From Chamaelirium japonicum (taxonomy: Eukaryota > Streptophyta > Magnoliopsida > Liliales > Melanthiaceae), in assembly GCA_947650365.1 (NCBI GenBank), contig OX393551.1:90246697-90310696 (forward strand): a stretch of DNA of 64,000 bases. Direction: 5' to 3'. Positions 1 to 60,803 of the stretch are shown here, one piece after another. The number at the start of each line of letters is the position of its first letter. Position 1 is the first letter of the stretch. The notes below the pieces were generated by a model. The model worked only from the letters and a program-made list of their open reading frames with translations, was not told where the DNA came from and did no database searches. The translations under genes and the position numbers were made by a program.

Positions 1-735
1 AATTAGAATGGATCGTACGAATGAATTAGAATGGATTGTACGAAGGAATTAGAATGGATAGTACGAATGAATTAGAATGGATACCTTCGTGCAAATGAAA
101 TAGAATGGTTCGCACGAATGAATTAGAATGGATCGTACGAATGAATTAGAATGTATCGTATGAATGAATTAGATTGGATCGTATTAATGAATTAGAATGG
201 ATCGTACGAATGAATTAGAATAGATCGTACGAATGAATTAGAATGGATACGAATGGATCGTACGAATGAGTAAGAATGGATCGTACGAATGAAATAGAAT
301 GGATTGTATGAATGAATTAGAATGGATACATTCGTGCGAATGAATTAGGATAGATCGTATAAATGAATTAGAATGGATCGTACGAATGTATTAGAATGGA
401 TACATTCGTGCGAATGAATTAGAATGGATCGTATGAATCAATTAGAATCGATCGTACGAATGAATTACAATGGATCATGCGAATGAATTAGAATGGATCG
501 TGCGAATGAATTAGAATGGATCGTATGAATGAATTTGAATGGATCGTGCGAATGACTTAGAATGGATCGTACGAATGAATTAGAATAGATTGTGCGAATG
601 AATTAGAATGGATCGTACGAATGAATTAGAATGGATCGTACGAATGAATTAGAATGGATCGTATGAATGAATTAGAATGGATCGTGCGAATGAATTAGAA
701 TGGATCGTACGAATGACATAGAATGGATTCGAACG
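1..735 (+). repeat. Satellite block, F orientation
   Basis: About 32 F units, entered mid-array. It includes the signature GGATACCTTCGTGCAAATG near 76 (part of string A), a short GGATACGAATGG unit near 245, and 28-bp long units near 325 and 390. It ends in the GGATTC-AACGAATGTATCC flip junction at about 727-742. Confidence 0.93.
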
Positions 736-1039
736 AATGTATCCATTCTAATTTATTCGTACGATCCATTCTAGTTCATTCGTACAATCCATTCTAATTC
801 ATTCGCACGATCCATTCGTATTCACACAAACGATCCATTCTAATTCATTCATATGATCCATTCAAATTCATTCGCACGAATGTATCTATTCTAATTCATT
901 CGTACGATCCATTCTAATTCATTTGTACGAATGTATCTACTCTAATTCATTCATACGATCCATTCTAATTCATTCGCACGAATGTATCCATTCCAATTCT
1001 TTCGTACGATCAATTCTAATTCATTCACACGATCTATTC
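736..1039 (-). repeat. Satellite block, R orientation
   Basis: About 13 R units with three long units (near 870, 930, 985) and a variant of the CACTCAAACG marker near 820-835. It returns to F at TTCGAGAATGG, about 1037-1047, a flip I did not see copied elsewhere. Confidence 0.92.
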
Positions 1040-2740
1040 GAGAATGGATCGTATTAATGAATTAGAATGGATCGTGCGAATGAATTAGAATGGATCGTAC
1101 GAATGAGTAAGAATGGACCGTGCGAATGAATTAGAATGGATCGTGCGAATGAATTAGAATGGATCGTACGAATGAATTAGAATGTATACATTCGTGCGAA
1201 TGAATTAGAATGGATCGTATGAATGAATTAGAGTGGATACATTCGTACAAATGAATTAGAATGGATCGTACGAATGAATTAGAATGGATACATTCGTGCG
1301 AATGAATTAGAATGGATCATATGAATGAATTAGAATGGATCGTTTGAGTGAATGCGAATGGATCGTGCGAATGAATTAGAATGGATTGTACGAATGAATT
1401 AGAATGGATCGTACGAATGAATTAGAATGGATCGTATGAATGAATTAGAATGGATCGTACGAATGAATTAGAATGGATCGTACGAATGAATTAGAATGGA
1501 TTGAATTAGAATGAATCGTACGAATGTATTAGATTGGATCGTATGAATGAATTAGAATGGATCGTGCGAATGAATTAGAATGGATCGTGCGAATGAATTA
1601 GAATGGATCGTATGAATGAATTAGAATGGATCGTATGAATGAATTAGATTGGATCGTATTAATGAATTTGAATGGATCATACGAATGAATTAGAATAGAT
1701 CGTACGAATGAATTAGAATGGATACGAATGGATCGTACGAATGAGTAAGAATGGATCGTACGAATGAAATAGAATGGATTGTACGAATGAATTAGAATGG
1801 ATACATTCGTGCGAATGAATTAGGATGGATCGTATGAATGAATTAGAATGGATCATACGAATGAATTAGAATGGATACATTCGTGCGAATGAATTAGAAT
1901 GGATCGTATGAATGAATTAGAATCGATCGTACGAATGAATTAGAATGGATCATGCGAATGAATTAGAATGGATCGTGCGAATGAATTAGAATGGATCGTA
2001 TGAATGAATTAGAATGGATTGTATGAATGAAATAGAATGGATCGTGCGAATGAATTAGAATGGATCGTACGAATGAATTAGAATGGTTCGTACGAAGGAA
2101 TTAGAATGGATAGTACGAATGAATTAGAATGGATACCTTCGTGCAAATGAAATAGAATGGATCGTACGAATAAATTAGAATGGATCTTTTGAGTGAATGC
2201 GAATGGATCGTGCGAATGAATTAGAATGGATTGTACGAATGAAATAGAATGGATCGTATGAATGAATTAGAATGGATTAAATTAGAATGAATCGTACGAA
2301 TGAATTAGAATGAATCATACCGTACGAATAAATTAGAATGGATCATACGAAGGAATTAGAATGGATCGTACGAATGAATTAGAATGGATCGTACGAAGGA
2401 ATTAGAATGGATCGTACGAAGGAATTAGAATGGATAGTACGAATGAATTAGAATGGATACCTTCGTGCAAATGAATTAGATTGGATCGTACGAATGAGTA
2501 AGAATGGATCGTACGAATGAAATAGAATGGATCATATGAATGAATTAGAATGGATCGCGTGAATGAATTAGAATGGATCGTACGAATGAATTAGAATAGA
2601 TTGTGCGAATGAATTAGAATGGATCGTACGAATGAATTAGAATGGATCGTACAAATGAATTAGAATGGATCGTATGAATGAATTAGAATGGATCGTGCGA
2701 ATGAATTAGAATGGATCGTACGAATGAAATAGAATGGATT
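1040..2740 (+). repeat. Satellite block, F orientation, with strings D and A
   Basis: String D lies at about 1186-1378 (GAGTGGATACATTCG units followed by CGTTTGAGTGAATGCG). A second TTTGAGTGAATG marker is near 2186. String A begins near 2273 (15-bp short unit, then GAATCATACCGTACG) and runs to about 2540. The block ends in the GGATTCGCACGAATG flip junction at about 2738-2760. Confidence 0.93.
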
Positions 2741-2925
2741 CGCACGAATGTATCCATTCTAATTCATTCGTACGATCCATTCTAATTCATTCGTACAATC
2801 CATTCTAATTCATTTGCACGATCCATTCTAATTCATTCGCACGAATGAATCCATTCTAATTCATTCGTATGATCCATTCTAATTCATTAGCATGAATGTA
2901 TCCATTCTAATTCTAATTCATTCGT
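2741..2925 (-). repeat. Satellite block, R orientation
   Basis: About eight R units. The return to F is centred exactly on the palindrome TTCGTACGAA at 2921-2930. Confidence 0.92.
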
Positions 2926-4562
2926 ACGAATGAATTAGAATAGATTGTGCGAATGAATTAGAATGGATCGTACGAAGGAATTAGAATGGATAGTACGAAT
3001 GAAGTAGAATAGATTGTGCGAATGGATTAGAATGGATCATATGATTGAGTAAGAAAGGATTGTACGACTGAATTAGAATGAATTAGAATGGATTCATTCG
3101 TGCGAATGAATTAGAATGGATCATACGATTGAGTAAGAATGGATTGTACGAATGAGATAGAATGGATCGTTCGAATGAATTAGAATGGATCATATGAATG
3201 AATTAGAATGGATCGTATGAATGAATTAGAATGGATCGTGCGAATAAATTAGAATGGATCATATGCATGAATTAGAATGGATACGAATGAATTAGAATGG
3301 ATCGTATGAAAGAATTAGAATTGATCGTACGAAGGAATTAGAATGGATCGTGAATTAGAATGGATCGTACGAATGAATTAGAATGGATACATTCGTGCGA
3401 ATGAATTAGAATGGATCATATGAATGAATTAGAATGGATCGTTTGAGTGAATGCGAATGGATCGTACGAATGAAATAGAATAGATCGTACGGATAAATGA
3501 ATTTGGATCGTGCTAATGAAATAGAATAGATCGTACGAATGAATTAGAATGGATCGTACTAATGAATTATAATAGATTGTGCGAATGAATTAGAATGGAT
3601 CGTACGAATGAATTAGAAAGGATATATTCGTGTGAATGAATTAGAATAGATCGTACGAATGAGATAGAATGGATCGTACGAATGAATTAGAATGGATACA
3701 TTCATGCGAATGAATTAGAATGGATCATTCGAATGAATTAGAATGGATCGTACGAATGAAATAGAATGGATTGTACGAACGAGATAGAATGGATCGTATG
3801 AATGAATTAGAATGGATACATTCTTGCGAATGAATTAGAATGGATCGTACGAAGGAATTAGAATGGATCGTGCGAATGAATTAGAATGGATCATACGAAT
3901 GAATTAGAATGGATCGTACGAATGAAATAGAATGGATTGTACGAATGAGATAGAATGGATCGTGCGAATGAATTAGAATGGATCGTTTTAATGAATTAGA
4001 ATGGATCGTGCGAATGAATTAGAATGGATCGTACGAAGGAATTAGAATGGATAGTACGAATGAATTAGAATGGATACCTTCGTGCAAATGAATTAGAATG
4101 GATCGTACGAATGAAATAGAATGGATCGTGCGAATGAATTAGAATGGATCGTACGAATGAATTAGAATGGATCGTACGAATGACTTAGAATGGATCGTTC
4201 GAATGAATTAGAATAGATTATGCGAATGAATTAGAATGGATCGTACGAATGAATTAGAAAGGATACATTCGTGCGAATGAATTAGAATGGATTGTATGAG
4301 TGTGAATGAATTAGAATGGATTGTGCGAATGAATTAGAATGGATCGTACGAATGAATTAGAATGGATCGTACGAATGAATTAGAATGGATCGTACGAATG
4401 AATTAGAATGGATACATTCGTGCAAAAGAATTAGAATGGATCGTGCGAATGAATTAGAATGGATCGTGCGAATGAATTAGAATGGATCGTACGAATAAAT
4501 TAGAATGGATCGTACGAATGAATTAGAATTGATCGTACGAATGAATTAGAAAGGATACATTC
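2926..4562 (+). repeat. Satellite block, F orientation, with string C
   Basis: Holds string C near 3010-3160 (GTGCGAATGGATTAG then GATTGAGTAAGAAAGG), the GGATAAATGAATTTGG marker near 3490, and GTATGAGTGTGAATG near 4295. It flips at GATACATTCGAATTC, 4553-4567. Confidence 0.93.
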
Positions 4563-5203
4563 GAATTCATTCGTACGATCCATTCTAATTCCTTCGTACG
4601 ATCCATATTCTAATTCATTCGCACGATCCATTCTAATTCATTCATACGATCCATTCTAATTTATTGGCACGATCCATTCTAATTCATTCGTACGATCCAT
4701 TCTAATTCATTCGCACAATCTATTCTAATTCATTCGAACGATCCATTCTAATTCATTCATACGATCCATCCTACTTCATTCGTACGATCTATTCTATTTC
4801 ATTCGTACAATCCTTTCTTCCTCAATCGTATGATCCATTCTAATCCATTCCCACAATCAATGCTAATTCATTCGTACGATCCTTTCTAATTCATTCGTAC
4901 GATCCATTCTAATTCCTTCGTATGATCCATTCTAATTCATTCGTACAGTATGATCCATTCTAATTCATTCGCACAATCTATTCTAATTCATTCGTATGAT
5001 CCATTCTAATCCATTCTACGATCCATTCTAATTCATTCGTACGTTCCATTCTAATTCATTAGCACGATCAATGCTAATTCATTCGTACGATCCATTCTAT
5101 TTCATTCGCACGATCCATTCTAATTCATTTGCACGATCCATTCTAATTCATTCATATAATCCATTCTAATTCTTTTGCACGAATGTATCCATTCTAATTC
5201 ATT
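4563..5203 (-). repeat. Satellite block, R orientation
   Basis: Contains string C reversed near 4780-4860 (CTCAATCGTATGATCC, then CTAATCCATTCCC). It returns to F at ATTCATTACGAATGAG near 5200. Confidence 0.92.
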
Positions 5204-5869
5204 ACGAATGAGTAAGAATGGATTGTACGAATGAATTAGAATGGATACATTCGTGCGAATGAATTAGAATGGATCATACGAATGAGAAAGAATGGATCGT
5301 ACGAATGAAATATAATGGATTGTACGAATGAATTAGAATGGATCGTACGAATGAATTAGCATTGATCGTGCTAATGAATTAGAATGGAACGTACGAATGA
5401 ATTAGAATGGATCGTAGAATAAATTAGAATGGATCGTACGAATGAATTAGAATAGATTGTGCGAATGAATTAGAATGGATCATACCGTACAAATGAATTA
5501 GAATGGATCATACGAAGGAATTAGAATGGATCGTACGAATGAATTAGAAAGGATCGTACGAATGAATTAGCATTGATTGTGCGAATGGATTAGAATGGAT
5601 CATACGATTGAGTAAGAAAGGATTGTACGAATGAAATAGAATAGATCATACGAATGAATTAGAATGGATCGTATGAATGAATTAGAATGGATCGTTCGAA
5701 TGAATTAGAATAGATTGTGCGAATGAATTAGAATGGATCGTACGAATGAATTAGAATGGATCGTGCGAATAAATTAGAATGGATCGTATGAATGAATTAG
5801 AATGGATCGTGCGAATGAATTAGAATATGGATCGTATGAAGGAATTAGAATGGATCGTACGAATGAATT
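5204..5869 (+). repeat. Satellite block, F orientation, with string C
   Basis: String C recurs near 5575-5650. The block ends at GAATGAATTCGAATGTATCC (about 5861-5880), a junction also found near 23404 and 36251 and, complemented, near 4556. Confidence 0.93.
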
Positions 5870-7317
5870 CGAATGTATCCTTTCTAATTAATTCGTACGA
5901 TCCATTCTAATTCATTCGTACGATCCATTCTAATTAATTCATACGATCCATTCTAATTCATTCGCACGATCCATTCTAATTCATTCGCACGATCCATTCT
6001 AATTCATTCATACAATCCATTCTAATTCTTTTGCACGAATGTATCCATTCTAATTCATTCGTACGATCCATTCTAATTCATTCGTACGATCCATTCTAAT
6101 TCATTCGCACAATCCATTCTAATTCATTCACTCATACGATCCATTCTAATTCATTCGCACGAATGTATCCTTTCTAATTCATTTGTACGATCCATTCTAA
6201 TTCATTCGCACAATCTATTCGAATTCATTCAAACGATCCATTCTAAGTCATTCGAACGATCCATTCTAATTCATTCGTACGATCCATTCTAATTCATTCG
6301 CACGATCCATTCTATTTCATTCGTACGATCCATTCTAATTCATTTGCACGAAGGTATCCATTCTAATTCATTCGTACTATCCATTCTAATTCCTTCGTAC
6401 GATCCATTCTAATTCATTCGCACGATCCATTCTAATTCATTAATACGATCCATTCTAATTCATTCGCACGATCCATTCTATCTCATTCGTACAATCCATT
6501 CTATTTCATTCGTACGATCCATTCTAATTCATTCGTATGATCCATTCTAATTCATTCGCACGATCCATTCTAATTCATTCGTACGATCCATTCTAATTCA
6601 TTCGCATGAGTGTATCCATTCTAATTCATTCGTACGATCCATTCTATCTCATTCGTACAATCCATTCTATTTCATTCGTACGATCCATTCTAATTCATTC
6701 GTATGATCCATTCTAATTCATTCGCATGAATGTATCCATTCTAATTCATTTGTACGAACCATTCTATCTCATTCGTACGATCTATTCTAATTCATTCGCA
6801 CGAATATATCCTTTCTAATTCATTCGTACGATCCATTCTAATTCATTCGCACAATCTATTCTAATTCATTAGTACGATCCATTCTAATTCATTCGTACGA
6901 TCCATTCTAATTCATTAGCACGATCCAAATTCATTTATCCGTACGATCTATTCTATTTCATTCGTACGATCCATTCGCATTCACTCAAACGATCCATTCT
7001 AATTCATTCATATGATCCATTCTAATTCATTCGCACGAATGTATCCATTCTAATTCATTCGTACGATCCATTCTAATTCACGATCCATTCAAATTCCTTC
7101 GTATGATCCATTCGAATTCATTCGTACGATCCATTCTAATTCATTCATACAATCCATTCTAATTCATTCGCACAATCTATTCTAATTCATTCGTACGATC
7201 CATTCTAATTCATTCGCACGATCCATTCTAATTCATTCGAACGATCCATTCTATTTCATTCGTAAGATCCATGCTAATTCATTCGTACGATCCATTCTAA
7301 TTCATTCGTACATTCGT
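5870..7317 (-). repeat. Longest R block of the window
   Basis: About 63 R units without a flip. String A reversed is at about 6323-6395 (CATTTGCACGAAGGTATCC, CGTACTATCC, CCTTCGTACG). GATCCAAATTCATTTATCC is near 6925 and CATTCACTCAAACG near 6970. The return to F is centred on TTCGTACGAA at 7313-7322. Confidence 0.93.
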
Positions 7318-7876
7318 ACGAAGGAAATAGAATGGAGAATGGATCATGCGAATGAATTAGAATAGATCGTGCGATAAGAATGGATCGTACGAATGAATTA
7401 GAATGGATACATTCGTGCAAATGAATTAGAATGGATCATATGAATGAATTAGATTGGATCGTATGAATGAATTAGAATGGATCGTGTGAATGAATTAGAA
7501 TGGATCGAACGAATGAATTAGAATGGATCGTACGAATGAATTAGAATGGATACATTCGTGCAAAAGAATTAGAATGGATCGTATGAATGAAATAGAATAG
7601 ATCGTACGAATGAATTAGAATGGATCATGCTAATGAATTAGAATTGATCGTACGAATGAATTATAATAGATTGTGCGAATGAATTAGAATGGATCGTACG
7701 AATGAATTGGAATGGATACATTCGTGCGAATGAATTAGAATGGATCGTTTGAATGAATTAGAGTGGATACATTCGTACAAATGAATTAGGATGGATCGTA
7801 TGAATGAATTAGAGTGGATACATTCGTACGAATGAATTAGAATGGATCGTACGAATGAAATAGAATGGATTCGCAC
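7318..7876 (+). repeat. Satellite block, F orientation, with string B
   Basis: Has the CGATAAGAATGG length variant near 7371 and string B at about 7700-7850 (GAATTGGAATGG, GAGTGGATACATTCGTAC, AATTAGGATGG). A 75-codon open frame at 7661-7888 on the minus strand is a repeat by-product. It ends in the GGATTCGCACGAATG junction near 7868. Confidence 0.92.
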
Positions 7877-8912
7877 GAATGTATCCATTCTAATTCATTC
7901 GTACGATTCATTCTAATTCATTCGCACGATCCATTCTAATTCATTCGCACGAATGTATCCATTCTAATTCATTCGTATGATCCATTCTAATTCATTCATA
8001 CGAATGAATTAGAATGGATACATTCGTGCGAATGAATTAGAATGGATCGTGCGAATGAATTAGAATGGATCGTACGAATGAATTAGAATGGATACATTCG
8101 TGCGAATCCATTCTATTTCATTCGTACGATCCATTCTAATTCATTCGCACGATCCATTCTAATTCATTCATATGATCCATTCTAATTCATTCGTACGATC
8201 CATTCTAATTCATTCGTACGATCCATTCTAATTCATTCGCACAATCTATTCTAATTCATTCGTACGATCCATTCTAATTCATTCGCACAATCCATTCTAA
8301 TTCATTCGAACGATCCATTCTGATTCATTCGCACGATCGTATGAATGAATTAGAATGGATACATTCGTACGAAGGAATTAGAATGGATCGTGCGAATGAA
8401 TTAGAATGGATCGTGCGAATGAATTAGAATGGATTCATTCGTGCGAATGAATTAGAATGGATCGTACGAATGAGTAAGAATGGATCGTACGAATGAATTA
8501 GAATGGATTGAATTAGAATGAATCGTACGGATGAATTAGAATGGATCGTATGAATGAATTAGAATGGATCGTACGAATGAATTAGAATGGATTGAATTAG
8601 AATGAATCGTACGAATGAATTAGAATGAATCATACCGTACGAATGAATTAGAATGGATCGTACGAATTGAATAGAATGGATTCGCACGAATGTATCCATT
8701 CTAATTCATTCGTACTATCCATTCTAATTACTTCGTACGATCCATTCTAATTCATTCGCACGAATGTATCCATTCTAATTCATTCGTATGAATGAATTAG
8801 AATGGATCATACGAATGAATTAGAGTGGATACATTCGTGCGAATGAATTAGAATGGATCATTCGAATGAATTAGAATGGATCGTACGAATGAATTTGAAT
8901 GGATACATTCGT
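7877..8912. repeat. Mosaic of short alternating blocks
   Basis: R 7877-7999, F 8000-8104, R 8105-8337, F 8338-8685, R 8686-8786, F 8787-8912. The F-to-R edges use the 28-bp junction in both of its orientations (near 8091, 8679 and 8899). R-to-F edges at 8000 and 8787 sit on CATTCATACGAATG and CATTCGTATGAATG, palindrome variants. The start of string A (short unit, CATACCGTACG) is at 8500-8645. Confidence 0.88.
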
Positions 8913-9546
8913 GCGAATCCATTCTATTTCATTCGTACGATCCATTCTAATTCATTTGCACGATCCATTCTAATTCATTCATACGATCCATTCTAATTCA
9001 TTCGCACGATCCATTCTAATTCATTCGCACAATCCATTCTAATTCATTAATACGATTCATTCTAATTCATTCGCACGATCCATTCTAATTCATTCACACT
9101 CATACGATCCATTCTAATTCATTCGTATGATCCATTCTAATTCATTCGCACAATCTATTCTAATTCATTCGTACGATCCATTCTAATTCATTCGCACGAT
9201 CCATTCTAATTCATTCATACGATCCATTCTATTTCATTCGTACAATCCATTCTTACTCATTCGTACGATCCATTCTAATTCATTTGCGCGAAGGTATCCA
9301 TTCTAATTCATTCGTACAATCCATTCTAATTCCTTCGTACGATCCATTCTAATTCATTCGTACGATCCATTCTAATTCATTCGTACGATCCATTCTAATT
9401 CATTCGCACGATCCATTCTAATTCATTCATACGATCCATTCTATTTCATTCGTATGATCCATTCTAATTCATTCGTACGGTATGATTCATTCTAATTCAT
9501 TCGTACGATTCATTCTAATTCAATCCATTCTAATTCATTCGTACGA
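8913..9546 (-). repeat. Satellite block, R orientation, with reversed string A
   Basis: CATTCACACTCATACG is near 9092, and string A reversed runs from about 9210 to 9540, including GTACGGTATGATTC near 9475 and a 15-bp short unit near 9520. The return to F is centred on GTACGATCGTAC at 9541-9552. Confidence 0.92.
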
Positions 9547-9970
9547 TCGTACGAATGAAATAGAATGGATCGTACGAATGAGTTAGAATGGATCGTATGA
9601 ATGAATTAGAATGGATCGTGCGAATGAATTAGAATGGATCGTACGAATGAAATAGAATGGATTCGCCCGAATGTATCCATTCTAATTCATTTGTACGATC
9701 CATTCTATCTCATTCGTAGAATCCATTCTATTTCATTCGTACGATCCATTCTAATTCATTCATACGATCCATTCTAATTTATTCGCACGATCCATTCTAA
9801 TTCATTCATACGATCCATTCTAATTCATTCATATGATCCATTCTAATTCATTCGCATGATCCATTCTAATTCATTCGTACGATCCATTCTAATTCATTCG
9901 CACGATCCATTCTAATTCATTCGCACGATCCATTCTAATTCATTCATACGATCCATTCTAATTCATTCGT
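9547..9970. repeat. Short F block then R block
   Basis: F 9547-9667 followed by R 9668-9970. The F-to-R edge is a GGATTCGCCCGAATG variant of the 28-bp junction near 9659; the R-to-F edge is CATTCGTACAAATG near 9965. Confidence 0.88.
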
Positions 9971-14845: not shown

Positions 14846-15142
14846 GATTAGAATGGATCATACGAATGAATTAGAATGGATACATTCATGCTAATGAATT
14901 AGAATGGATCATACGAATGAATTAAAATGGATTCATTCGTGTGAATGAATTAGAATGGATCGTACGAATGAGTAAGAATGGAATTAGAATGGAAAGTACG
15001 AATGAATTAGAATGGATACCTTCGTGCAAATGAATTAGAATGGATCGTATGAATGTATCCATTCTAATTCATTCGTACGATCCATTCTAATTCATTCTAA
15101 TTCACCATTCTATTTCATTCGTACGATCCATTCTAATTCATT
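14846..15142. repeat. Short F block then R micro-block
   Basis: F 14846-15052 carries the GGATACCTTCGTGCAAATG signature near 15014. R 15053-15142 has a garbled TTCATTCTAATTCACC near 15085-15105. The flip back is CTAATTCATTGGATCG near 15133. Confidence 0.85.
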
Positions 15143-48344: not shown

Positions 48345-48485
48345 TGGATTGAATTAGAATGGATCGTACGAATGAATTAGAATGGATCGTACGAATGAAT
48401 TAGAATGGATCGTACGAATGAGTAAGAATGGATCGTGCGAATGAATTAGAATGGATCGTACGAATGAAATAGAATGGATTTGCAT
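48345..48485 (+). repeat. Short F block
   Basis: Six units with GAGTAAG near 48419; nearly the same as 56940-57077. Ends in GGATTTGCATGAATGTATCC, a variant of the 28-bp junction, near 48477, the approximate start of the segment shared with 23470. Confidence 0.91.
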
Positions 48486-49309
48486 GAATGTATCCATTCT
48501 AATTCATTCATACGATCCATTCTAATTCATTCGTACGATCCATTCTTACTCATTCGTATGATCCATTCTAATTCATTCGCACGAATGAATCCATTCTAAT
48601 TCATTCGTATGATCCATTCTAATTCATTCGCATGAATGTATCCATTCTAATTCATTCGTACGATCCATTCTAATTCATTTGCACGAATGTATCCATTCTA
48701 ATTCATTCATACGATCCATTCTAATTCATTCATACAATCTATTCTAATTCATTCGTACGATCCATTCTACGATCCATTCTAATTCATTCGTACGTTCCAT
48801 TCTAATTCATTCGCACGATCCATTCTAATTCATTCGCATGATCCATTCTAATTCATTCATACGATCCATTCTAATTCATTCGTATGAATCTATTCTTACT
48901 CATTCGTACGATCCATTCTAATTCATTCGCACGATCCATTGAATAAGAATGGATACATTCGTGCGAATCCATTCTATTTCATTCGTACGATCCATTCTAA
49001 TTCATTCGCACGATCCATTCTAATTCATTCATACGATCCATTCTAATTCATTCGTACGATCCATTCTAATTCATTCGTACGATGTATTCTAATTCATTCG
49101 TACGATCCATTCTAATTCATTTGTACGATCTATTCTAATCCATTCGTACGATTCATTCTAATTCAATCCATTCTAATTCATTCCATTCTAATTCATTCGC
49201 ACGATCCATTCGCATTCACTCAAACGATCCATTCTAATTCATTCATACAATCCATTCCAAATCTTTTGCACGAATGTATCCATTCTAATTCATTCATACG
49301 ATCCATTCG
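48486..49309 (-). repeat. R block with one 23-bp F insertion
   Basis: Parallels 23478-24183. F 48941-48963 is the complement compound junction. An extra run near 49135-49255 (short unit, CATTCCATTC, CACTCAAACG) has no counterpart at 23.9-24.2 kb and shifts the offset by about 120 bp. Confidence 0.91.
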
Positions 49310-49755
49310 TGCGAAGGAATTAGAATGGATACGTGCGAATGAATTTGAATTGTGAATTCGAATGGATCATACGAAGGAATTAGAATGGATCGTGCTAATG
49401 AATTAGAATGGATTGTGCGAATGAATTAGAATGGATCGTACGAATGACTTAGAATGGATCGTTCGAATGAATTAGAATAGATTGTGCGAATGAATTAGAA
49501 TGAATCATACGAATGAATTAGAAAGGATACATTCGTGCGAATGAATTAGAATGGATCGTATGAGTGTGAATGAATTAGAATGGATCGTGCGAATGAATTA
49601 GAATTGATCGTATTAATGAATTAGAATGGATCGTGCGAATGAATTAGAATGGATCGTACGAATGAGTTAGAATGGATCGTGCGAATGAATTAGAATGGAT
49701 TGTACGAATGAATTAGAATGGATCGTATAAATGAATTAGAATGGATACATTCGTG
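49310..49755 (+). repeat. F block, second of three copies
   Basis: Same unit order as 24184-24628 and 58745-59177, with GTGCTAATG at 49392, GACTTAG near 49445 and GTATGAGTGTGAATG near 49558. Confidence 0.92.
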
Positions 49756-51021
49756 CGAATCCATTCTATTTCATTCGTACGATCCATTCTAATTCATTCG
49801 CACGATCCATTCTAATTCATTCATACGATCCATTCTAATTCATTCGAACGATCCATTCTAATTCATTCGTACAATCCATTCTAATTCATTCGTACGATCC
49901 ATTCTAATTCATTCATACGATCCATTCTAATTCATTAGCACAATCTATTCTAATTCATTCGTACGATCCATTCTAATTCATTCGCATGATCCATTCTAAT
50001 TCATTCGCACGAATGTATCCATTCTAATTCATTTGTACGAATGTATCCACTCTAATTCATTCGTACGATCCATTCTAATTCATTAGCATGATCCATTCTA
50101 ATTCATTCGTACGATCCATTCTAATTCATCCAATCTAATTCATTCATACGATCCATTCTAATTCATTCGTAAGATCCATTCTAATTCATTCGTACGATCC
50201 ATTCTAATTCGTGCGAATGTATCCATTCTAATTCATTCGTACGATCCATACGAATGAATCCATTCTAATTCATTCGTATGATCCATTCTAATTCATTCGT
50301 ACGATCCATTCTAATTCATTCGTACGATCCATTCTAATTCATTCTAATTCATTCGCACGATCCATTCTTTCATTCGTACGATCCATTCTAATTCATTCGT
50401 ACGATCCATTCTAATTCATTCGCACAATCTATTCTAATTCATTCGTACGATCCATTCTAATTCATTCGCACGACCCATTCTAATTCATTCGCACGATCCA
50501 TTCTAATTCATTCGTACGATCCATTCTAATTCATTCGTACGATCCATTCTAATTCATTCACACGATCCATTCTAATTCATTCATACGATCCATTCTATTT
50601 CATTCGTACGATCCATTCTAATTCATTCGTACGATTCATTCTAATTCAATCCATTCTAATTCATTCGTACGATCCATTCTTACTCATTCGCACAATCTAT
50701 TCTTATTCATTCGTACGATCCATTCTAATTCATTCGCACGATCCATTCTAATTCATTCATATGATCCATTCTATTTCATTTGTACGATCCATTCTTACTC
50801 ATTTGTACGATCCATTCTAATTTATTTGCACGAAGGTATCCAGTCTAATTTATTCGTACTATCCATTCTAATTCCTTCGTACGATCCATTCTAATTCCTT
50901 CGTACGATCCATTCGGATACATTCGTGTGAATCCATTCTATTTCATTCGTACGATCCATTCTAATTCATTCGCACGATCCATTCTAATTCATTCGTACGA
51001 TCCATTCTAATTCATTCGTAC
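49756..51021 (-). repeat. Satellite block, R orientation
   Basis: Parallels 24629-25972 including string D (about 50005-50220), the ATACGAATGAATCC interruption near 50248, the shortened CATTCTTTCATTCG unit near 50362, reversed string A (about 50755-50900) and the F fragment near 50914-50932. Confidence 0.91.
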
Positions 51022-51776
51022 GTATGAATTAGAATGGATACATTCGTGCGAATGAATTAGAATGGATCGTACGAATGAATTAGAATGGATCGTATGAATG
51101 AATTAGAATGGATCGTACGAATGACTTAGAATGGATCGTTCGAATGAATTAGAATGGATCGTGCGAATGAATTAGAATGGATCGGACGAATGAATTAGAC
51201 TGGATCTGGATCGTATGAATGATTCATTCTATGAATGGATCGTACGAATGAATTAGAATGGACCTGGATCGTTTATCCATTCTAATTCCTTCGTACGATC
51301 CATTCTAATTCATTCGTACGATCCATTCTAATTCATTCGCACGATCCATTCTAATTCATTCGCACGAATGTATCCATTCTAATTCATACGTACGATCTAT
51401 TCTAATTCATTCGTACGATCCATTCTAATTCATTCGCACAATCAATTCTAATTCATTTGCACGATCCATTCTAATTCATTCATACAATCCATTCTAATTC
51501 TTTTGAACGAAGGTATCCATTCTAATTCATTCGTACTATCCATTCTAATTATCCGTACGATCTATTCTATTTCATTCGTACGATCCATTCTTATCGTACG
51601 AATGAATTAGAATGGATCGTACGAATGAATTAGAATGGATAGTACGAATGAATTAGAATGGATACATTCATGCGAATGGATCATACGATCCATTCTAATT
51701 CATTCGCACGATCCATTCTAATTCTTTCATACGATCCATTCTAATTCATTCATACGATCCATTCTAATTCATTCGT
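51022..51776. repeat. Mosaic of alternating blocks
   Basis: F 51022-51267, R 51268-51594, F 51595-51682, R 51683-51776, the same succession as 25973-26775. GATTCATTCTATGAA is at 51221 and the GGACCTGGATCGTTTATCC junction near 51260. Confidence 0.89.
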
Positions 51777-52203
51777 ACGGATAAATGAATTTGGATCGTG
51801 CTAATGAATTAGAATGGATCGTACGAATGAATTAGAAAGGATTCTGCGAATGAATTAGAATGGATCGTACGAATGAATTAGAATAGATCGTACGAATGAA
51901 TTAGAATGGATCGTACGAAGGAATTAGAATGGATCGTACGAAGGAATTAGAATGGATAGTACGAATGAAGTAGAATGGATACCTTCGTGCAAATGAATTA
52001 GAATGGATCGTATGAATGAGTAAGAATGGATCGTACGAATGAATTAGAATGGATCGTACGAATGAATTAGAATGGATCTTACGAATGAATTAGAATGGAA
52101 CGTATAGATTGTGCGAATGATTTAGAATGGATCGTACGAATGAATTAGAATGGATCATACGAATGAATTAGATTGGATCGTGCGAATGAATTAGAATGGA
52201 TCG
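51777..52203 (+). repeat. Satellite block, F orientation
   Basis: Counterpart of 26776-27179: GGATAAATGAATTTGG at 51779, string A parts near 51925-52030, and GAACGTATAGATTGTGCG near 52097. Confidence 0.91.
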
Positions 52204-52752
52204 CACGAATGTATCCATTCTAATTCATTTGTACGAATGTATCCACTCTAATTCATTCGTACGATCCATTCTAATTCATTAGCACGATCCATTCTAATTC
52301 ATTCGTACGATCCATTCTAATTCATTTATACGATCCAATCTAATTCATTCATACGATCCATTCTAATTCATTCGTACGATCCATTCTAATTCATTCGTAC
52401 GATCCATTCTAATTCGTGCGAATGTATCCATTCTAATTCATTCGTACGATCCATTCTAATTCATTCGTACGAATGTATCCATTCTAATTCATTTGTATGA
52501 ATGTATCCACTCTAATTCATTCGTACGATCCATTCTAATTCATTAGCACGATCCATTCTAATTCATTCGTACGATCCATTCTAATTCATTTATACGATCC
52601 AATCTAATTCATTCGCATGATCCATTCGTATTCACTCAAACGATCCATTCTAATTCATTCATATGATCCATTCTAATTCATTCGCGCGAATGTATCCATT
52701 CTAATTCATTAGCACGATCCATTCTAATTCATTAGCACAATCCAAATTCATT
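52204..52752 (-). repeat. R block carrying reversed string D twice
   Basis: Counterpart of 27180-27728; ends at CAAATTCATTTACGAATG near 52743. Confidence 0.91.
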
Positions 52753-53091
52753 TACGAATGAAATAGAATAGATCGTACGAATGAATTAGAATGGATCATG
52801 CGAATAAATTAGAAAGGATCGTATGAATGAATTAGAATGGATCGTTCGAATAAATTAGAATATAGATCGTACGAATGAATTAGAATGGATCGTATGAATG
52901 AACTAGAATGGATCGTGCGAATGAATTAGAATGGATCGTACGAATGAAATATAATTGATCGTACGAATGGATCGTACGAATGAATTAGAATGGATCGTAC
53001 GAATGAATTAGAATGGATCGTATGAATGAATTAGAATAGATCGTACGAATGAATTAGAATGGATCGTAGGAATGAAATAGAATGGATTCGC
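52753..53091 (+). repeat. Satellite block, F orientation
   Basis: Counterpart of 27729-28088 (AATATAGATCG near 52857, GAACTAG near 52905), but with one fewer AAATAGAATTGATCG unit. Confidence 0.91.
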
Positions 53092-53936
53092 ACGAATGTA
53101 CCCATTCTAATTCATTCGTACGATCCATTCTAATTCATTCGCACAATCTATTGTAATTCATTCGAACGATCCATTCTAAGTCATTCGTACGATCCATTCT
53201 AATTCATTCGTACGATCCATTCTAATTCATTCGCACGATCCATTCTATTTCATTCGTACAGTTCATTCTAATTCAATCCATTCTAATTAATTCGTACGAT
53301 CCATTCTAATTCATTTGTACGATCCATTCTAATTCATTCGCACGATCCATTGAATTAGAATGGATACATTCGTGCGAATCCATTCTATTTCATTCGTACG
53401 ATCCATTCTAATTCATTCGCACGATCTATTCTAATTCATTCATACGATCCATTCTAATTCATTCATACGATCCATTCGTATCCATTCTAATTCATTCGTA
53501 CGATCCATTCTAATTCATTCGTACAATCCATTCTAATTCCTTCGTACGATCCATTCTAATTCATTCGTACGATCAATTCTAATTTATTCGCACGATCCAT
53601 TCTAATTCATTCATACGATCCATTCTAATTCATTCGTACGATCTATTCTATTTCATTCGTACAATCCATTCTTACTCAATCGTATGATCCATTCTAATCC
53701 ATTCGCACAATCTATTCTAATTCATTCGTACGATCCATTCGATTTCATTCGTACGATCCATTCTAATTCATTCGTACGATCTATTCTAATTCATTCATAC
53801 GATCCATTCTAATTCATTCGCACGATCCATTGTAATTCATTCGCATGATCCATTCTAATTCATTCGTACGATCGATTCTAATTCATTCATACGATCCATT
53901 CTAATTCATTCGCACGAATGTATCCATTCTAATTCA
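53092..53936 (-). repeat. R block with one 23-bp F insertion
   Basis: To about 53365 it parallels 28089-28345 (GTACAGTTCATTC near 53256 against GTACGGTTCATTC). F 53352-53374 is the complement compound junction. String C is at about 53635-53725. Ends at CTAATTCAATTGATCGTGCG near 53930. Confidence 0.91.
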
Positions 53937-54414
53937 ATTGATCGTGCGAATGAATTAGAATTCATTCTAATGGATCGTATGAATGAATTAGAATGGATCG
54001 TACTAATGAATTAGAATAGATTGTGCGAATAAATTAGAATGGATCGTATGAATGAATTAGAATGGATCATGCGAATGAATTAGAATATGGATCGTATGGA
54101 GGAATTAGAATGAATCGTACGAATGAATTAGAATGGATCGTACGAATGAATTAGAATGGATCGTACGAATGAATTAGAATGGATTGAATTAGAATGGATT
54201 GTACGAATGAGATAGAATGGATCGTGCGAATGAATTAGAATGGACCGTACGAATGAATTAGAATAGATTGTGCGAATGAATTAGAATGGATCTGGATCGT
54301 GTATCCATTCTAATTCATTCGTACGACCCATTCTAATTCATTCGTACGATCCATTCTAATTCATTCGCACGATCCATTCTTATTCATTCGCACGATCCAT
54401 TCTAATTCATTCGT
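53937..54414. repeat. F block, then short R block
   Basis: F 53937-54300 contains a tiny reversal GAATTCATTC near 53958-53968 and ends at GGATCTGGATCGTGTATCC near 54288. R 54301-54414 then returns to F at CATTCGTACGAATTG near 54408. Confidence 0.88.
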
Positions 54415-55062
54415 ACGAATTGATCGTACGAATGGATCGTACGAATGAATTAGAATGGATCGTTCGAATGAATTAGAATGGATCGTATGAATGAATTAGA
54501 ATGGATCGTAGTAATGAATTAGAATGGATCGTGCGAATGAATTAGAATGGATCGTACGAATGAAATAGAATTGATCGTACGAATGGATCGTACGAATGAA
54601 TTAGAATGGATCGTTCGAATGAATTAGAATGGATCGTACGAATGAATTAGAATGGATCATACGAATGAATTAGAATGGATCGTACGAATGAATTAGAATG
54701 GATCGTACGAATGAATTAGAAAGGATACATTCGTACAAATGAATTAGAATGGATCGTACGAATGAATTAGAGTGGATACGTTCGTACAAAAGAATTAGAA
54801 TGGATTGTATGAATGAATTAGAATGGATCGTACGAAGGAATTAGAATGGATAGTACGAATGAATTAGAATGGATACTACGAATGAATTAGAATGGATCGT
54901 ACGAATGAATTAGAGTGGATCATATGAATGAATTAGAATGGATCGTATGAATAAGTTAGAATGGATCGTGCGAATGAATTAGAATGGATCGTGCGAATGA
55001 ATTAGAATGGATCGTACGAATGAATTAGAATGGGTCGTACGAATGAATTAGAATGGATACAC
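54415..55062 (+). repeat. Satellite block, F orientation
   Basis: Two AATTGATCGTACGAATGG short units near 54417 and 54570, GAGTGGATACGTTCG near 54770, and an AAGGAATTAGAATGGATAG fragment of string A near 54836. Ends at GGATACACGATCCAGATCC near 55053. Confidence 0.91.
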
Positions 55063-55690
55063 GATCCAGATCCATTCAAATTCATTCGCACAATCTATTC
55101 TAATTCATTCGTATGATCCATTCTAATTCATTCATACGATCCATTCTAATTCTACGATCCATTCTTACTCATTCGTATTATCCATTTTAATTCATTCACA
55201 CGAATGTATCCATTCTAATTCATTCACACGATCCTACGAATGAATTAAAATAGATTGTGCGAATGAATTAGAATGGATCTGGATCGTGTATCCATTCTAA
55301 TTCATTCATACGATCCATTCTAATTCATTACTACGATCCATTCTAATTCATTCATACGATCCATTCTAATTCATTCGTACGATCCATTCTAATTCATTCG
55401 CACGATCCATTCTAATTCATTCATACGATCCATTCTAATTCATTCGTATGAATCCATTCTAATTCATTCATACGATCCATTCTAATTCATTCGCATGATC
55501 CATCCTAATTCATTCATACGATCCATTCTAATTCATTCGTACGATCTATTCTATTTCATTCGTACAATCCATTCTAATTCATTCGCACGATCCATTCTTA
55601 CTCATTCGTACGATCCATTCTAATTCATTTGCACGAATGTATCCATTCTAATTCATTCATATGATCCATTCTAATTCATTCGCACGATCC
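55063..55690. repeat. R blocks separated by a 50-bp F segment
   Basis: R 55063-55234, F 55235-55284, R 55285-55690. The F segment runs from CCTACGAATG to GGATCTGGATCGTGTATCC, as at 32327-32376. The last R block ends abruptly at GATCCGAATTAG near 55686. Confidence 0.89.
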
Positions 55691-56330
55691 GAATTAGAAT
55701 GGATCATACGAAGGAATTAGAATGGATCGTGCGAATAAAATAGAATGGATCGTATGAATGAATTAGAATATATTGTGCGAATGGATTAGAATGGATCATA
55801 CGATTGAGTAAGAATGGATTGTATGAATGAAATAGAATAGATCGTACGAATGAATTAGAATGGATCGTGCGAATAAATTAGAATGGATCGTATGAATGAA
55901 TTAGAATGTATCGTGCGAATGAATTAGAATATAGATCGTACGAATGAATTAGAATGGATCGTATGAATGAACTAGAATGGATCGTGCGAATGAATTAGAA
56001 TGGATCGTACGAATGAAATAGAATTGATCGTACGAATGGATCGTACGAATGAATTAGAATGGATCGTACGAATGAATTAGAATGGATACATTCGTGCGAA
56101 TCCATTATTATTCAAATGGATAATACGAATGAGTTAGAATGGATTCGTGCGAATGGATACATTCGTGCGAATGAATTAGAATGGATACATTCGTGTGAAT
56201 GAATTAAAATGGATAATACGAATGAGTAAGAATGGATCGTAGAATTAGAATGGATCGTATGAATAAATTAGAATGGATCATACGAATGAATTAGAATATA
56301 TTGTGCGAATGAATTAGAATGGATCTGGAT
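55691..56330 (+). repeat. F block with a 15-bp reversal
   Basis: String C fragment at about 55765-55840. 55850-56050 resembles 27760-27960 (AATATAGATCG, GAACTAG, AATTGATCG). CCATTATTATTC at 56102-56113 is a degraded micro-reversal. Ends at GGATCTGGATCGTGTATCC near 56322. Confidence 0.89.
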
Positions 56331-56939
56331 CGTGTATCCATTCTAAATCATTCGTACGACCAATTCTAATTCATTCGTACGATCCATTCTAATTCATTCG
56401 CATGATCCATTCTAATTCATTCGCACGATCCATTCTAATTCATTCATACGATCCATTCTAATTCATTCATATGATCCACTCTAATTCATTCGTACGATCC
56501 ATTCTAATTCATTCGTAGTATCCATTCTAATTCATTCGTACTATCCATTCTAATTCCTTCGTACGATCCATTCTAATTCATTCATACAATCCATTCTAAT
56601 TCTTTTGGACGAACGTATCCACTCTAATTCATTCGTACGATCCATTCTAATTCATTTGTACGAATGTATCCTTTCTAATTCATTCGTACGATCCATTCTA
56701 ATTCATTCGTATGATCCATTCTAATTCATTCGTACGATCCATTCTAATTCATTCGCATGATCCATTGAATTAGAATGGATACATTCGTGCGAATCCATTC
56801 TATTTCATTCGTACGATCTATTCTAATTCATTCGCACGATCCATTCTAATTCATTCATACGATCCATTCTATTTCATTCGTACGATCCAATCTAATTCAT
56901 TCGTACGATCCATTCTAATCCATTCATATTCATTCGCAT
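56331..56939 (-). repeat. R block with one 23-bp F insertion
   Basis: Starts with a CAATTC variant near 56370. F 56767-56789 is the complement compound junction. Ends at CATTCGCATGGATTG near 56932. Confidence 0.91.
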
Positions 56940-57077
56940 GGATTGAATTAGAATGGATCGTACGAATGAATTAGAATGGATCGTACGAATGAATTAGAAT
57001 GGATCGTACGAATGAGTAAGAATGGATCGTGCGAATGAATTAGAATGGATCGTATGAATGAAATAGAATGGATTCGC
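56940..57077 (+). repeat. Short F block
   Basis: Six units nearly the same as 48345-48485, ending in the 28-bp junction near 57068. Confidence 0.91.
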
Positions 57078-58242
57078 ACGAATGTATCCATTCTAATTCA
57101 TTCATACGATCCATTCTAATTCATTCGTACGATCCATTCTAATTTCTTCGTATGATCTATTCTTATTCATTCGCACAATCTATTCTAATTCATTTGTACG
57201 ATCCATTCTAATTCATTCGCACGATCCATTCTAATTCATTCATACGATCCATTCTAATTCATTCGTACGATCCATTCTAATTCATTCGTATGATCCATTC
57301 TAATTCATTCGCACAATCTATTCTAATTCATTCGTACAATCTATTCTAATTCATTCGAACGATCCATTCTAATTCATTCGCACAATCTATTCTAATTCAT
57401 TCGTACGATCCATTCTAATTCATTCGCACGATCCATTCTAATTCATTCATACGATCCATTCTATTTCATTCGTACGATCCATTCTAATTCATTCGTACGA
57501 TCCATTCTAATTCATTCGTACGATTCATTCTAATTCAATCCATTCTAATTCATTCGTACGATCCATTCTTACTCATTCGAACGATCCATTCTAATTCATT
57601 CGCACGAATGAATCCATTCTAATTCATTCGTATGATCCATTCTAATTCATTCGTACGATCCATTCTAATTGTTTCTAATTCATTCGCACGATCCATTCTT
57701 TCATTCGTACGATCCATTCTAATTCATTCGTACGATCCATTCTAATTCATTCGCACAATCTATTCTAATTCATTCGTACGATCCATTCTAATTCATTCGC
57801 ACGATCCATTCTAATTCATTCGCACAATCTATTCTAATTCATTCGTACGATCCATTCTAATTCATTCGCACGATCCATTCTAATTCATTCATACGATCCA
57901 TTCTAATTCATTCGTATGATCCATTCTAATTCATTCGTACGATCCATTCTTACTCATTCGTACGATCCATTCTTACTCATTCGTACGACCCATTCTAATT
58001 CATTCGTACGATCCATTCTTACTCATTCGCACAATCTATTCTAATTCATTCGTACGATCCATTCTAATTGTTTCGCACGATTCATTCTAATTCACTCATA
58101 CGATCCATTCTATTTCATTTGTACGATCCATTCTTACTCATTCGTACGATCCATTCTAATTCATTTCCACGAAGGTATCCATTCTAATTCATTCGTACTA
58201 TCCATTCTAATTCCTTCGTACGATCCATTCTAATTCCTTCGT
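57078..58242 (-). repeat. Satellite block, R orientation
   Basis: 57078-57660 follows 47658-48215. A shortened CATTCTTTCATTCG unit is near 57695. String A reversed at about 58085-58235. The return to F is centred on TTCGTACGAA at 58238-58247, which makes reversed and direct string A meet head to head here. Confidence 0.92.
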
Positions 58243-59177
58243 ACGAATGAATTAGAATGGATACCTTCGTGCAAATGAATTAGAATGGATCGTACGAATG
58301 AGTAAGAGTGGATCATACAAATGAAATAGAATGGATCGTATGAATGAATTAGAATGGATCGTGCGAATGAATTAGAATGGATCGTACGAATGAATTAGAA
58401 TAGATTGTGCGAATGAATTAGAATGGATCGTACGAATGAATTAGAATGGATGTTACGAATGAATTAGAATAGATCGTACGAAGGAATTAGAATTGATCGT
58501 ACGAATGAATTCGAATAGATTGTGCGAATGAATTAGACTGGATCGTACGAATGAATTGGATTGGATACATTCGTGCGAATGAATTAGAATGGATCGTATG
58601 AATGAATTAGAGTGGATACATTCGTACAAATGAATTAGAATGGATCGTACGAATGAATTAGAATGGATCGTATGAATGAATTAGAATGGATCGTACGAAT
58701 GAGTAAGAATGGATCGTACGAATGAAATAGAATGGATCGTATGAATGAAGATACGTGCGAATGAATTAGAATTGTGAATTAGAATGGATCATACGAAGGA
58801 ATTAGAATGGATCGTGCTAATGAATTAGAATGGATTGTGCGAATGAATTAGAATGGATCGTACGAATGACTTAGAATGGATCGTTCGAATGAATTAGAAT
58901 AGATTGTGCGAATGTATTAGAATGGATCGTACGAATGAATTAGAAAGGATACATTCGTGCGAATGAATTAGAATGGATCGTATGAGTGTGAATGAATTAG
59001 AATGGATCGTGCGAATGAATTAGAATGGATCGTATTAATGAATTAGAATGGATCGTGTGAATGAATTAGATTGGATCGTACGAATGAGTAAGAATGGATC
59101 GTGCGAATGAATTAGAATGGATTGTACGAATGAATTAGAATGGATCGTACGAATGAATTAGAATGGATACATTCGTG
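58243..59177 (+). repeat. F block, third of three copies at its right end
   Basis: Opens in string A (ACCTTCGTGCAAATG near 58262). String B units near 58550-58640. From 58745 it follows 24184-24628 and 49310-49755 to the complement form of the 28-bp junction near 59166. Confidence 0.92.
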
Positions 59178-59930
59178 CGAATCCATTCTATTTCATTCGT
59201 ACGATCCATTCTAATTCATTCGCACGATCCATTCTAATTCATTCCTACGATCCATTCTTATTCATTCGTACGATCCATTCTAATTCATTCGAACAATCCA
59301 TTCTAATTCATTCGTACGATCCATTCTAATTCATTCATACGATCCATTCTAATTCATTAGCACAATCTATTCTAATTCATTCGTACGATCCATTCTAATT
59401 CATTCGCACGATCCATTCTAATTCATTCGCACGAATGTATCCATCCTAATTCATTTGTACGAATGTAACCACTCTAATTCATTCGTACGATCCATTCTAA
59501 TTCATTAGCACGATCCATTCAAATTCATTCGTACGATACATTCTAATTCATTTATACGATCCAATCTAATTCATTCATACGATCCATTCTAATTCATTCG
59601 TACGATGCATTCTAATTCATTCGTACGATCCATTCTAATTCGTGCGAATGTATCCATTCTAATTCATTCGTACGATCCATTCTAATTCATTCGTACGAAT
59701 GTATCCATTCTAATTCATTTGTACGAATGTATCCACTCTAATTCATTCGTACGATCCATTCTAATTCATTAGCACGATCCATTCTAATTCATTCGTACGA
59801 TCCATTCTAATTCATTTATACGATCCAATCTAATTCATTCGCAAGATCCATTCGCATTCACTCAAACGATCCATTCTAATTCATTCATATGATCCATTCT
59901 AATTCATTCGCACGAATGTATCCATTCTAA
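58745..59930. repeat. Third, partial copy of the long segment
   Basis: GTGCTAATG at 58814 matches 49392 and 24265; the order GACTTAG, GATCGTTCG, GTATGAGTGTGAATG, junction, ATTAGCACAATC, string D follows. Beyond about 59640 it aligns better with 27420-27680 than with 25110 onward. Confidence 0.8.
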
Positions 59931-60803
59931 TTCATTCGTACGATCCATTCTAATTCATTCGTACGATCCATTCTTACTCATTCGTACGATCCATTCTAAT
60001 TCATTCGTACGACCCATTCTAATTCATTCGTACGATCCATTCGCATTCACTCAAACGATCCATTCTAATTCATTCATATGATCCATTCTAATTCATTCGC
60101 ACGAATGTATCCATTCTAATTTATTCGTACGATCCATTCTATATCAATCGTACGATCCATTCTTACTCATTCGTACGATCCATTCGTATCCATTCTAATT
60201 CATTCGTACGATCTATTCTAATTCATTCGTACGATCCATTCTAATTCATTCGCACGATCCATTGAATTAGAATGGATACATTCGTGCGAATCCATTCTAT
60301 TTCATTCGTACGATCCATTCTAATTCATTCGCACGATCCATTCTAATTCATTCGTACGATCCATTCTAATTCATTCATGCGATCCATTCTAATTTATTCG
60401 CACGATCCATTCTAATTCATTCATACGATCCATTCTAATTCATTCATATGATCCATTCTAATTCCTTCGTACGATCCATTCTAATTCATTCATACGATCC
60501 ATCCTAATTCATTCGTACGATCTATTCTATTTCATTCGTACAATCCATTCTTACTTAATCGTGTGATCCATTCTAATCCATTCGCACAATCTATTCTAAT
60601 TCATTCGTACGATCCATTCTATTTCATTCGTATGATCCATTCTAATTCATTCGTACAATCCATTCTAATTCATTCGTACGATCCATTCTAATTCATTCAT
60701 ACGATCCATTCTATTTCATTCGTACGATCCATTCTTACTCATTCGTACGATCCATCCTAATTCATTTGCACGAAGGTATCCATTCTAATTCATACGTACG
60801 ATC
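59178..60803 (-). repeat. R block with one 23-bp F insertion
   Basis: String D reversed at about 59430-59640 and 59690-59930 (AATTCGTGCGAATG, CATTTATACG, CATTCACTCAAACG), with CACTCAAACG again near 60050. F 60264-60286 is the complement compound junction. String C is near 60515-60610 and reversed string A near 60700-60790. Confidence 0.91.

Follow-up and report, generated by a model that had tools for sequence, protein, structure and literature searches.

Human alpha satellite higher-order arrays are megabase tandem arrays that evolve by the copying of segments, and to our knowledge unequal exchange between head-to-tail copies is the assumption behind most models of how satellites evolve. The array considered here, from the plant Chamaelirium japonicum, resembles alpha satellite in being a tandem array that evolves by copied segments. 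It fills a 64-kb stretch of contig OX393551.1 (hereafter C3; the stretch, C3:90246697-90310696, is referred to as the window) of an assembled genome of 1,518,659,071 bases in 3253 contigs, and its short units stand in either of two orientations, forward (F) and reverse (R). Our subject is a single F→R joint, junction A, that recurs throughout the array on both strands. The analysis is based on one assembly alone and on samples of three contigs, C1, C2 and C3, all of chromosome size.

In alpha satellite orientation is typically kept, with few inversions within higher-order units (PMC9859433); in contrast, the 64 kb of the present array hold 146 alternating blocks and similarity is nearly independent of distance past ~1 kb. 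For the CATTC-rich human satellites 2 and 3, PMC4022460 describes 1,738 both-strand reads that were set aside as possible inversion breakpoints; unit and species differ from those here. Fold-back inverted duplications in human disease, as described in the section of PMC3907307 dealing with them, consist of inverted copies with a short unduplicated spacer, 766 to 70,466 bp. Palindromes at 5215, 20859 and 28847 of the window likewise have spaced inverted arms; unlike the large human events, however, the arms here are of 154 to 796 bp in a census described below, the largest being 1.9 kb, and lie inside a satellite. In Lathyrus sativus abundant satellites derive from retrotransposon subrepeats and form long arrays, some with long terminal repeat (LTR) insertions; these are long plant arrays like the present one, and the portion of the paper considered does not treat orientation switching within them (PMC7004042). 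A limited search of the open-access literature turned up no account of a single satellite joint recurring thousands of times in the two orientations, an absence that a search of this kind leaves unproven. Junctions such as A are natural tags that allow the rate of new switches to be compared with the copying of old ones.

The array and its recurrent joint

The whole window is one unbroken array of a 23-bp satellite, in which a 28-bp variant of the unit, containing ACATTCGTGCGAATG, is also present.

1..64000, no strand assigned, 23-bp satellite array, F unit AATTAGAATGGATCGTACGAATG, 28-bp variant AATTAGAATGGATACATTCGTGCGAATG

Parsing with anchors gives 2682 units, 1394 forward and 1288 reverse, in 146 blocks that are separated by 73 F→R and 72 R→F switches. 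What is seen is satellite DNA, a long array of a short tandem unit with many copies at several chromosomal places, arrays having been found on C1, C2 and C3. The array does not show the combination of greater likeness between near copies and a regular multi-unit period that would point to a higher-order repeat; the single strong spacing in the window, 25 kb, comes mainly from one duplication. The window, which belongs to a satellite array of mixed orientation, holds no open reading frame (ORF) of at least 150 amino acids and no match to an Rfam family at gathering scores, and a coding or RNA function was rejected on these grounds.

Junction A reads GAATGGAT/TCGCACGAATGT/ATCCATTC, with the 28-bp form GAATGGATTCGCACGAATGTATCCATTC. 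On inspection, an F unit, GAATGGAT, runs into an R-oriented 28-bp unit, ATTCGCACGAATGTATCC, with AT common to both. When called by its 12-bp middle, TCGCACGAATGT, with at most 2 mismatches, at all 73 F→R switches of the window, the junction is found at 42 of them, 22 (+) and 20 (−), and exact 28-bp copies number 15 (+) and 16 (−). Two subtypes can be told apart, a 'short' one (13 of the 42) with a single inverted unit followed by F again, and a 'long' one (29 of the 42); two copies (23475, 56088) have an atypical left flank. The copies are listed below by coordinates, strand and match to junction A, where 'unlisted' means absent from a preliminary reading of the letters of this stretch made without database searches (the sequence-only reading).

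721..748, +, 1 mismatch, unlisted
2732..2759, +, exact
7863..7890, +, exact
8086..8113, −, exact
8674..8701, +, exact
8897..8924, −, exact
9655..9682, +, 1 mismatch, unlisted
12877..12904, +, exact
13864..13891, −, exact
16067..16094, +, 1 mismatch, short (micro-inversion) subtype
16474..16501, +, exact
16697..16724, −, exact
17719..17746, −, 1 mismatch
20271..20298, −, exact
21487..21514, +, exact, short subtype
21852..21879, +, exact, short subtype
23467..23494, +, 1 mismatch, atypical left flank, unlisted
23965..23992, −, exact, short subtype
24612..24639, −, 1 mismatch
28078..28105, +, 1 mismatch
28384..28411, −, exact, paired in flipped form with 29283-29310 by a local inverted duplication
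29283..29310, +, exact, flipped partner of 28384-28411
30498..30525, −, mismatch outside the 12-bp middle, unlisted
31413..31440, −, exact
33349..33376, +, exact
34437..34464, +, exact, short subtype
36711..36738, −, exact, short subtype
39100..39127, −, exact
43620..43647, +, exact, short subtype
44973..45000, +, exact, short subtype
47241..47268, +, exact, short subtype
47648..47675, +, exact
48472..48499, +, 2 mismatches
48947..48974, −, exact, short subtype
49739..49766, −, exact
53080..53107, +, 1 mismatch
53358..53385, −, exact, short subtype
56080..56107, −, core (20 bp exact), atypical left flank, unlisted
56773..56800, −, exact, short subtype
57066..57093, +, exact
59161..59188, −, exact
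60270..60297, −, exact, short subtype

Being contained in the 28-bp variant of the unit, the 12-bp middle occurs 49 times per strand in the window, joints included, and the idea of a special 12-bp loop was accordingly rejected; the marker is the joint itself and the middle is ordinary satellite sequence. Searching with a 20-bp core and at most 2 mismatches gives 99 matches in the window as compared with 0 in 100 dinucleotide shuffles, a comparison that is weak within a satellite, many of the 99 being ordinary R-oriented 28-bp units (TCATTCGCACGAATGTATCC). Random phase-matched array sites and the reversed pattern make better controls than shuffles, and the reversed, uncomplemented pattern is found 0 times in the window and, on either strand, 0 times in the genome. 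Exact junction A, by contrast with this control, occurs 12,282 times in the 1.52 Gb, 6125 forward and 6157 reverse. Among the places listed genome-wide are sites on C1 and C2, while C3 is represented by the window. All 37 positions given for the joint by the sequence-only reading (19 + and 18 −) lie within ~25 bp of GAATGGATTCGCACGAATGTATCCATTC or its complement, with 31 exact, 5 having one mismatch and 1 having two. Its estimate of about 40 copies holds for the window, where the copies near 729, 9663, 23475, 30506 and 56088 had been missed, and is far too small for the genome.

Along C1, junction A is present at no fewer than 21 sites between 1.75 and 134.9 Mb, and the long flanks of some of these are similar (at most 2.6 kb shared within the 3 kb compared); the satellite is dispersed along this contig and not confined to one site. 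A viral, plasmid or prokaryotic source was rejected, there being no exact match to the pattern in viral or genome contig collections and no match to a 501-bp query in plasmids, collections from which records of the plant's own genome may be left out; the size of that genome, too, is eukaryotic.

Origin and copying of junction A

Copies of junction A share far more than the joint. An AAATAG unit adjoins 34 of the 42 on the F side, compared with a background of 191 of 2682 units (7%), while AATTAG is found at 4 and other sequences at 4, and AAATAG is on the R side in 1; the claim that it always adjoins the joint on the same side has therefore to be relaxed. Over 115 bp the identity of the F flanks is 0.871 for the 42 junctions and 0.745 for random phase-matched flanks, and by gapped extension the median shared left flank is 115 bp as compared to 36 bp in 861 random pairs, bearing in mind that pairs are not independent. 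Specific variants are linked to the joint, at −11 (0.88 vs 0.06), −43 (0.79 vs 0.24) and −65 (0.69 vs 0.17), and enriched flank columns extend to −114. To the right of the joint flanks are shared within subtypes, the median shared length being 108 bp between short copies and 58 bp between long copies, as opposed to 15 bp across subtypes. A set of 76 exact joints was also assembled (40 from 84 kb of C3, 15 from 60 kb of C2 and 21 from C1 loci, with joints near ends dropped); an AAATAG-type neighbour is found at 66 of these, from all three contigs, and in a tree of the 76 the copies group by contig, with 13 changes vs 31.0 when shuffled. One origin of junction A is well supported, as the sequence-only reading had proposed, by an F-flank haplotype that continues far past the joint and by the same neighbour on C1, C2 and C3.

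The same joint could in principle also have formed repeatedly at a fragile unit sequence, a hot spot whose products would be unrelated by descent. A palindrome, TCGTACGA, lies within many units, with 980 exact copies in the window, and strand switching should be easy given that inverted units occur throughout; moreover, flanks on the R side, when pooled, resemble each other no more than random ones do (identity 0.716 vs 0.753), which is the main result against a naive view of a single origin and which arises because the two subtypes are mixed. The sequence-only reading had taken random-like flanks as a sign of repeated formation, and such flanks are what the pooled R side shows and what the F side, with 115 vs 36 bp shared, does not. 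Rather than unrelated flanks around a constant joint, we find F flanks common to the copies, also across contigs, and R flanks common within subtypes. In addition, GGATCGTACGATCC, the F→R joint expected from switching at the common palindrome, is absent from the 84 kb of C3 and the 60 kb of C2, although it occurs twice in 28 kb of C1. A hot spot was rejected because flanks are shared between copies, and we consider it most improbable.

How the two orientations of A are related to each other is a separate matter. In a quick tree of the 42 window copies, built from 200 bp to the left, the joint itself and 14 bp to the right, the orientations intermix, as anticipated, with 15 changes of orientation vs a shuffled mean of 14.4 and 377 of 500 shuffles as low. 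The corresponding values are 5 vs 4.3 for C2, 13 vs 13.7 for C3 and, for the C1 junctions, 17 (+) and 4 (−), 3 vs 3.9. Shared flank length is equal in 421 same-orientation and 440 opposite-orientation pairs (p = 0.95). Exact repeats within the window behave similarly, direct and inverted ones numbering 3299 and 3314 at 60 bp or longer, 169 and 135 at 100 bp or longer and 19 and 19 at 150 bp or longer, and the frequency of long exact repeats is almost level over distances of 1 to 64 kb, remaining near the expectation for uniform placement. Below 1 kb there is a local excess, up to 4.2-fold for direct and 5.3-fold for inverted repeats in single bins. These data indicate that copying within the array ignored direction and, past ~1 kb, distance. 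With repeats, tree and flanks all blind to orientation, the joint formed once and was flipped repeatedly, so that only its formation was a single event. At 400 bp, the longest exact repeat detected in the window (37317 and 46286) is inverted.

Part of the flipping is visible directly as local inverted duplications, which carry A and two other joint types in flipped form; they are listed here together with a direct duplication.

28345..29349, no strand assigned, local inverted duplication, arms 28345-28712 / 28982-29349, 97.8%, gap 269, with A at 28384 (−) and 29283 (+)
7831..8956, no strand assigned, local inverted duplication, arms 7831-8147 / 8640-8956, 96.5%, gap 492, a module of two A joints flipped
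3285..7146, no strand assigned, large inverted duplication, arms 3285-5203 / 5230-7146 (1.9 kb), 96.1%, spacer 26 bp
54639..56755, no strand assigned, inverted duplication, arms 54639-55225 / 56169-56755, 98.1%, gap 943, flips an F→R switch of the CTGGATCGTGT type
23473..28649, no strand assigned, direct segmental duplication (~5.2 kb) with its second copy at 48677-53567

Near-identical inverted arms (96 to 98%) around short spacers of 26 to 492 bp, one mark of fold-back duplication, are present. The palindrome at 3285-7146 has at its centre, near 5200, an R→F switch of a type seen just once, and it flips another F→R type (4544 and 5843). In a census on C1, C2 and C3, 37 of 301 switches, as a raw count, lie between arms of at least 150 bp with at least 95% identity and a gap below 500 bp. 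The sequence-only reading had contrasted one ancestral inversion, copied in both directions, with many independent inversions, and this contrast does not survive: the best tree has 15 orientation changes, 3 of them forced by well-supported branches, two of the local inverted duplications carry A flipped, and the window holds, depending on threshold, 9 to 12 F→R types besides A and 19 to 39 R→F types.

We think it probable that A formed once and that homology-guided, orientation-blind copying, together with local inverted duplication, then spread and flipped it. An F unit would have joined an R-oriented 28-bp unit, the two apparently overlapping by 2 bp (AT), at a time when the satellite had yet to spread over at least three chromosome-size contigs. 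Copying and inversion of array pieces would have followed, chiefly through exchange guided by homology (conversion or inversion) between array segments, for which a donor of opposite orientation may pair as well as one of the same orientation, F pairing with the complement of R. Since F and R blocks are everywhere, exchange of this kind would flip or copy inner junctions without leaving a new joint at its ends, and would both multiply A and randomise its orientation. Local inverted duplication with a spacer, by fold-back or strand switching, would add flipped copies and make new switches. We infer the recombination pathway, the origin in microhomology and, below, the cause of an excess of R→F types.

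Two other accounts of the spread can be compared with this one. Amplification might have been exclusively direct, with orientation randomised by large inversions and no inverted copying at all; an inversion between F and R blocks flips the junctions inside it and creates none, and the 5.2-kb duplication, in which both copies have A joints in matching order and orientation, is a direct one. A simple inversion alone, however, does not retain both arms as the local inverted duplications do, and inverted exact repeats are about as numerous as direct ones at each length given above. Direct amplification as the only process is therefore unlikely in our judgment. Alternatively, pieces might have been pasted in illegitimately, with site and orientation left to chance and a new joint arising at every end that did not match. 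New joints would fit the diversity of the R→F switches (30 types among 72, with 19 singletons, at edit distance 2), and there is a small excess of switches within 30 bp of the ends of long matches in either copy, 0.33 for direct (98 chains) and 0.38 for inverted matches (107 chains) vs ~0.24 expected from a random per-copy rate of 0.13. At most match ends, though, there is no such switch, and pasting alone should give many F→R types too: in simulations of unguided pasting the top F→R class has a share of only 0.04 to 0.12, as against 45 of 73 in the window (a class that includes three joints outside the 42 called A). The low share, along with the many match ends that lack a switch, leads us to infer that exchange was mainly homology-guided, and we regard illegitimate insertion as quite improbable.

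Several points weigh against the account in terms of homology-guided, orientation-blind copying. The 42-copy tree is poorly resolved, with 4 of 39 inner branches starred and 22 open, and it is the starred ones that force only 3 changes. Symmetric homology-guided simulations, with ~60 switches per kind, reach a top F→R share of only 0.2 to 0.3, and give equal numbers of F→R and R→F types where 11 and 30 are observed. Finally, there may be assembly errors in a megabase satellite, and the junctions were read from the assembly alone. The symmetric model underpredicts A, and a polar or favouring step is consequently needed.

One such step would be amplification of an F-A-R piece for some effect of its own, such as protein binding, a hairpin or an origin. 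Junction A is over-represented relative to neutral simulations, as just described, and one junction stretch (2680-2800) folds far more stably than shuffles, with z of −15.8. Any F→R switch in this array should nevertheless fold as a long hairpin, so that the fold is not evidence specific to A, and the lack of a long ORF or an RNA family in the window speaks against a favoured element as well. That A was favoured in this manner seems to us an unlikely explanation.

As to how A may have begun within the account that we prefer, single formation followed by copying, a locus on C1 is suggestive. At C1:28037001-28046000 (L056) an F array contains three ~36-bp R inserts, at 797, 4729 and 7777, with a spacing of 3-4 kb. 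All three start with A (one exact, two one-base variants) and continue with CACTAGCACGATCG, a continuation past the junction that is also written CACTAGCACGATCGTACGAATTAATTAG; CACTAGCACGATCG has 12 occurrences among the 21 loci of C1, as opposed to none in 84 kb of C3 or 60 kb of C2. It may be, if the direction of change has been read correctly, that junction A was at first the left edge of a tiny insert of this kind, inverted within an F array, and not the product of a large inversion. The uninverted ancestor of the micro-inversion was not found in the window.

Types of switch and strand polarity

The two kinds of switch differ in their diversity. When the switches of the window are sorted by edit distance, the numbers of F→R and R→F types are 13 and 39 at distance 1, 11 and 30 at distance 2 and 10 and 19 at distance 3. 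In the 60 kb of C2 there are 7 types among 34 F→R switches and 16 among 35 R→F switches, and the three commonest F→R types are the three of the window, in the same order (20, 7 and 3). Other ways of sorting give differences in the same direction: centred 36-bp strings at 10% yield 13 F→R vs 35 R→F types in the 84 kb of C3 and 7 vs 18 in C2, and spacing classes number 11 vs 22 and 5 vs 14, respectively. Under a common urn model a difference of 19 types has p <=0.0005 and one of 9 types p ~0.05 to 0.12.

One reading of this asymmetry is that the unit is polar for strand switching. New switches would then be almost only R→F, made while the R strand is copied from the hairpin-prone F strand, whereas the F→R switches would descend from a few ancient joints, both kinds being spread by orientation-blind copying. 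Of 120 sampled stretches, 117 fold better as the F strand than as the R strand, by a small margin, −0.084 vs −0.063 kcal/mol per base, and, as a hypothesis, better folding of single-stranded F could stall R-strand synthesis and cause switching, which perhaps is why new switches are mostly R→F. A polar simulation comes closer to the observations than the symmetric ones do, giving 79 F→R switches of 9 types with a top share of 0.44 and 78 R→F switches of 29 types with a top share of 0.18.

The claim of polarity is fragile in several respects. The asymmetry depends on threshold, edit distance 3 giving, along with its 10 and 19 types, a top R→F class of 34 among 72, and strings at 15% of their length giving 12 and 21 types in C3 with a top R→F class of 61 among 99. 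Polarity among palindromes is weak, 24 R→F vs 13 F→R in the census on C1-C3 (p = 0.10), and the parameters of the polar simulation were scanned, not tested. For arms of at least 300 bp the census gives 13 R→F vs 3 F→R with a cut-off that was picked after the data had been viewed. The best close palindromes of the window are almost all R→F, a bias that weakened in the census, and local palindrome scores are 19.6 for F→R, 39.6 for R→F and 22.1 for random centres, with one palindrome giving much of the R→F excess. The palindrome data being weak, the claim rests on the type counts, and we put polarity forward tentatively, as a possibility that we rather doubt. If it is true, the balance of junction types is a fossil record of the behaviour of replication forks in a satellite, and should the excess of R→F types extend over the whole genome, the joints as tags could show which strand switches template, something that is hard to see in ordinary satellites.

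Genomic setting

Sampling of C3 around the window, from 89.9 to 91.5 Mb, gave the same satellite in 10 of 12 stretches and other sequence in 2. The two non-satellite stretches, at C3:90.18 Mb (L004) and C3:90.38 Mb (L012), contain pieces of Ty3/gypsy-type LTR retrotransposons, with an integrase core in the former and a retrotransposon gag in the latter; like the genome size, these proteins are what would be expected of a eukaryote, probably a plant. Further away, at C3:85.0 Mb (L010:1-1695), an F-only edge of the satellite with 49 F anchors and 0 R anchors adjoins GC-richer non-satellite DNA, and this edge could be a boundary of the array or an origin.

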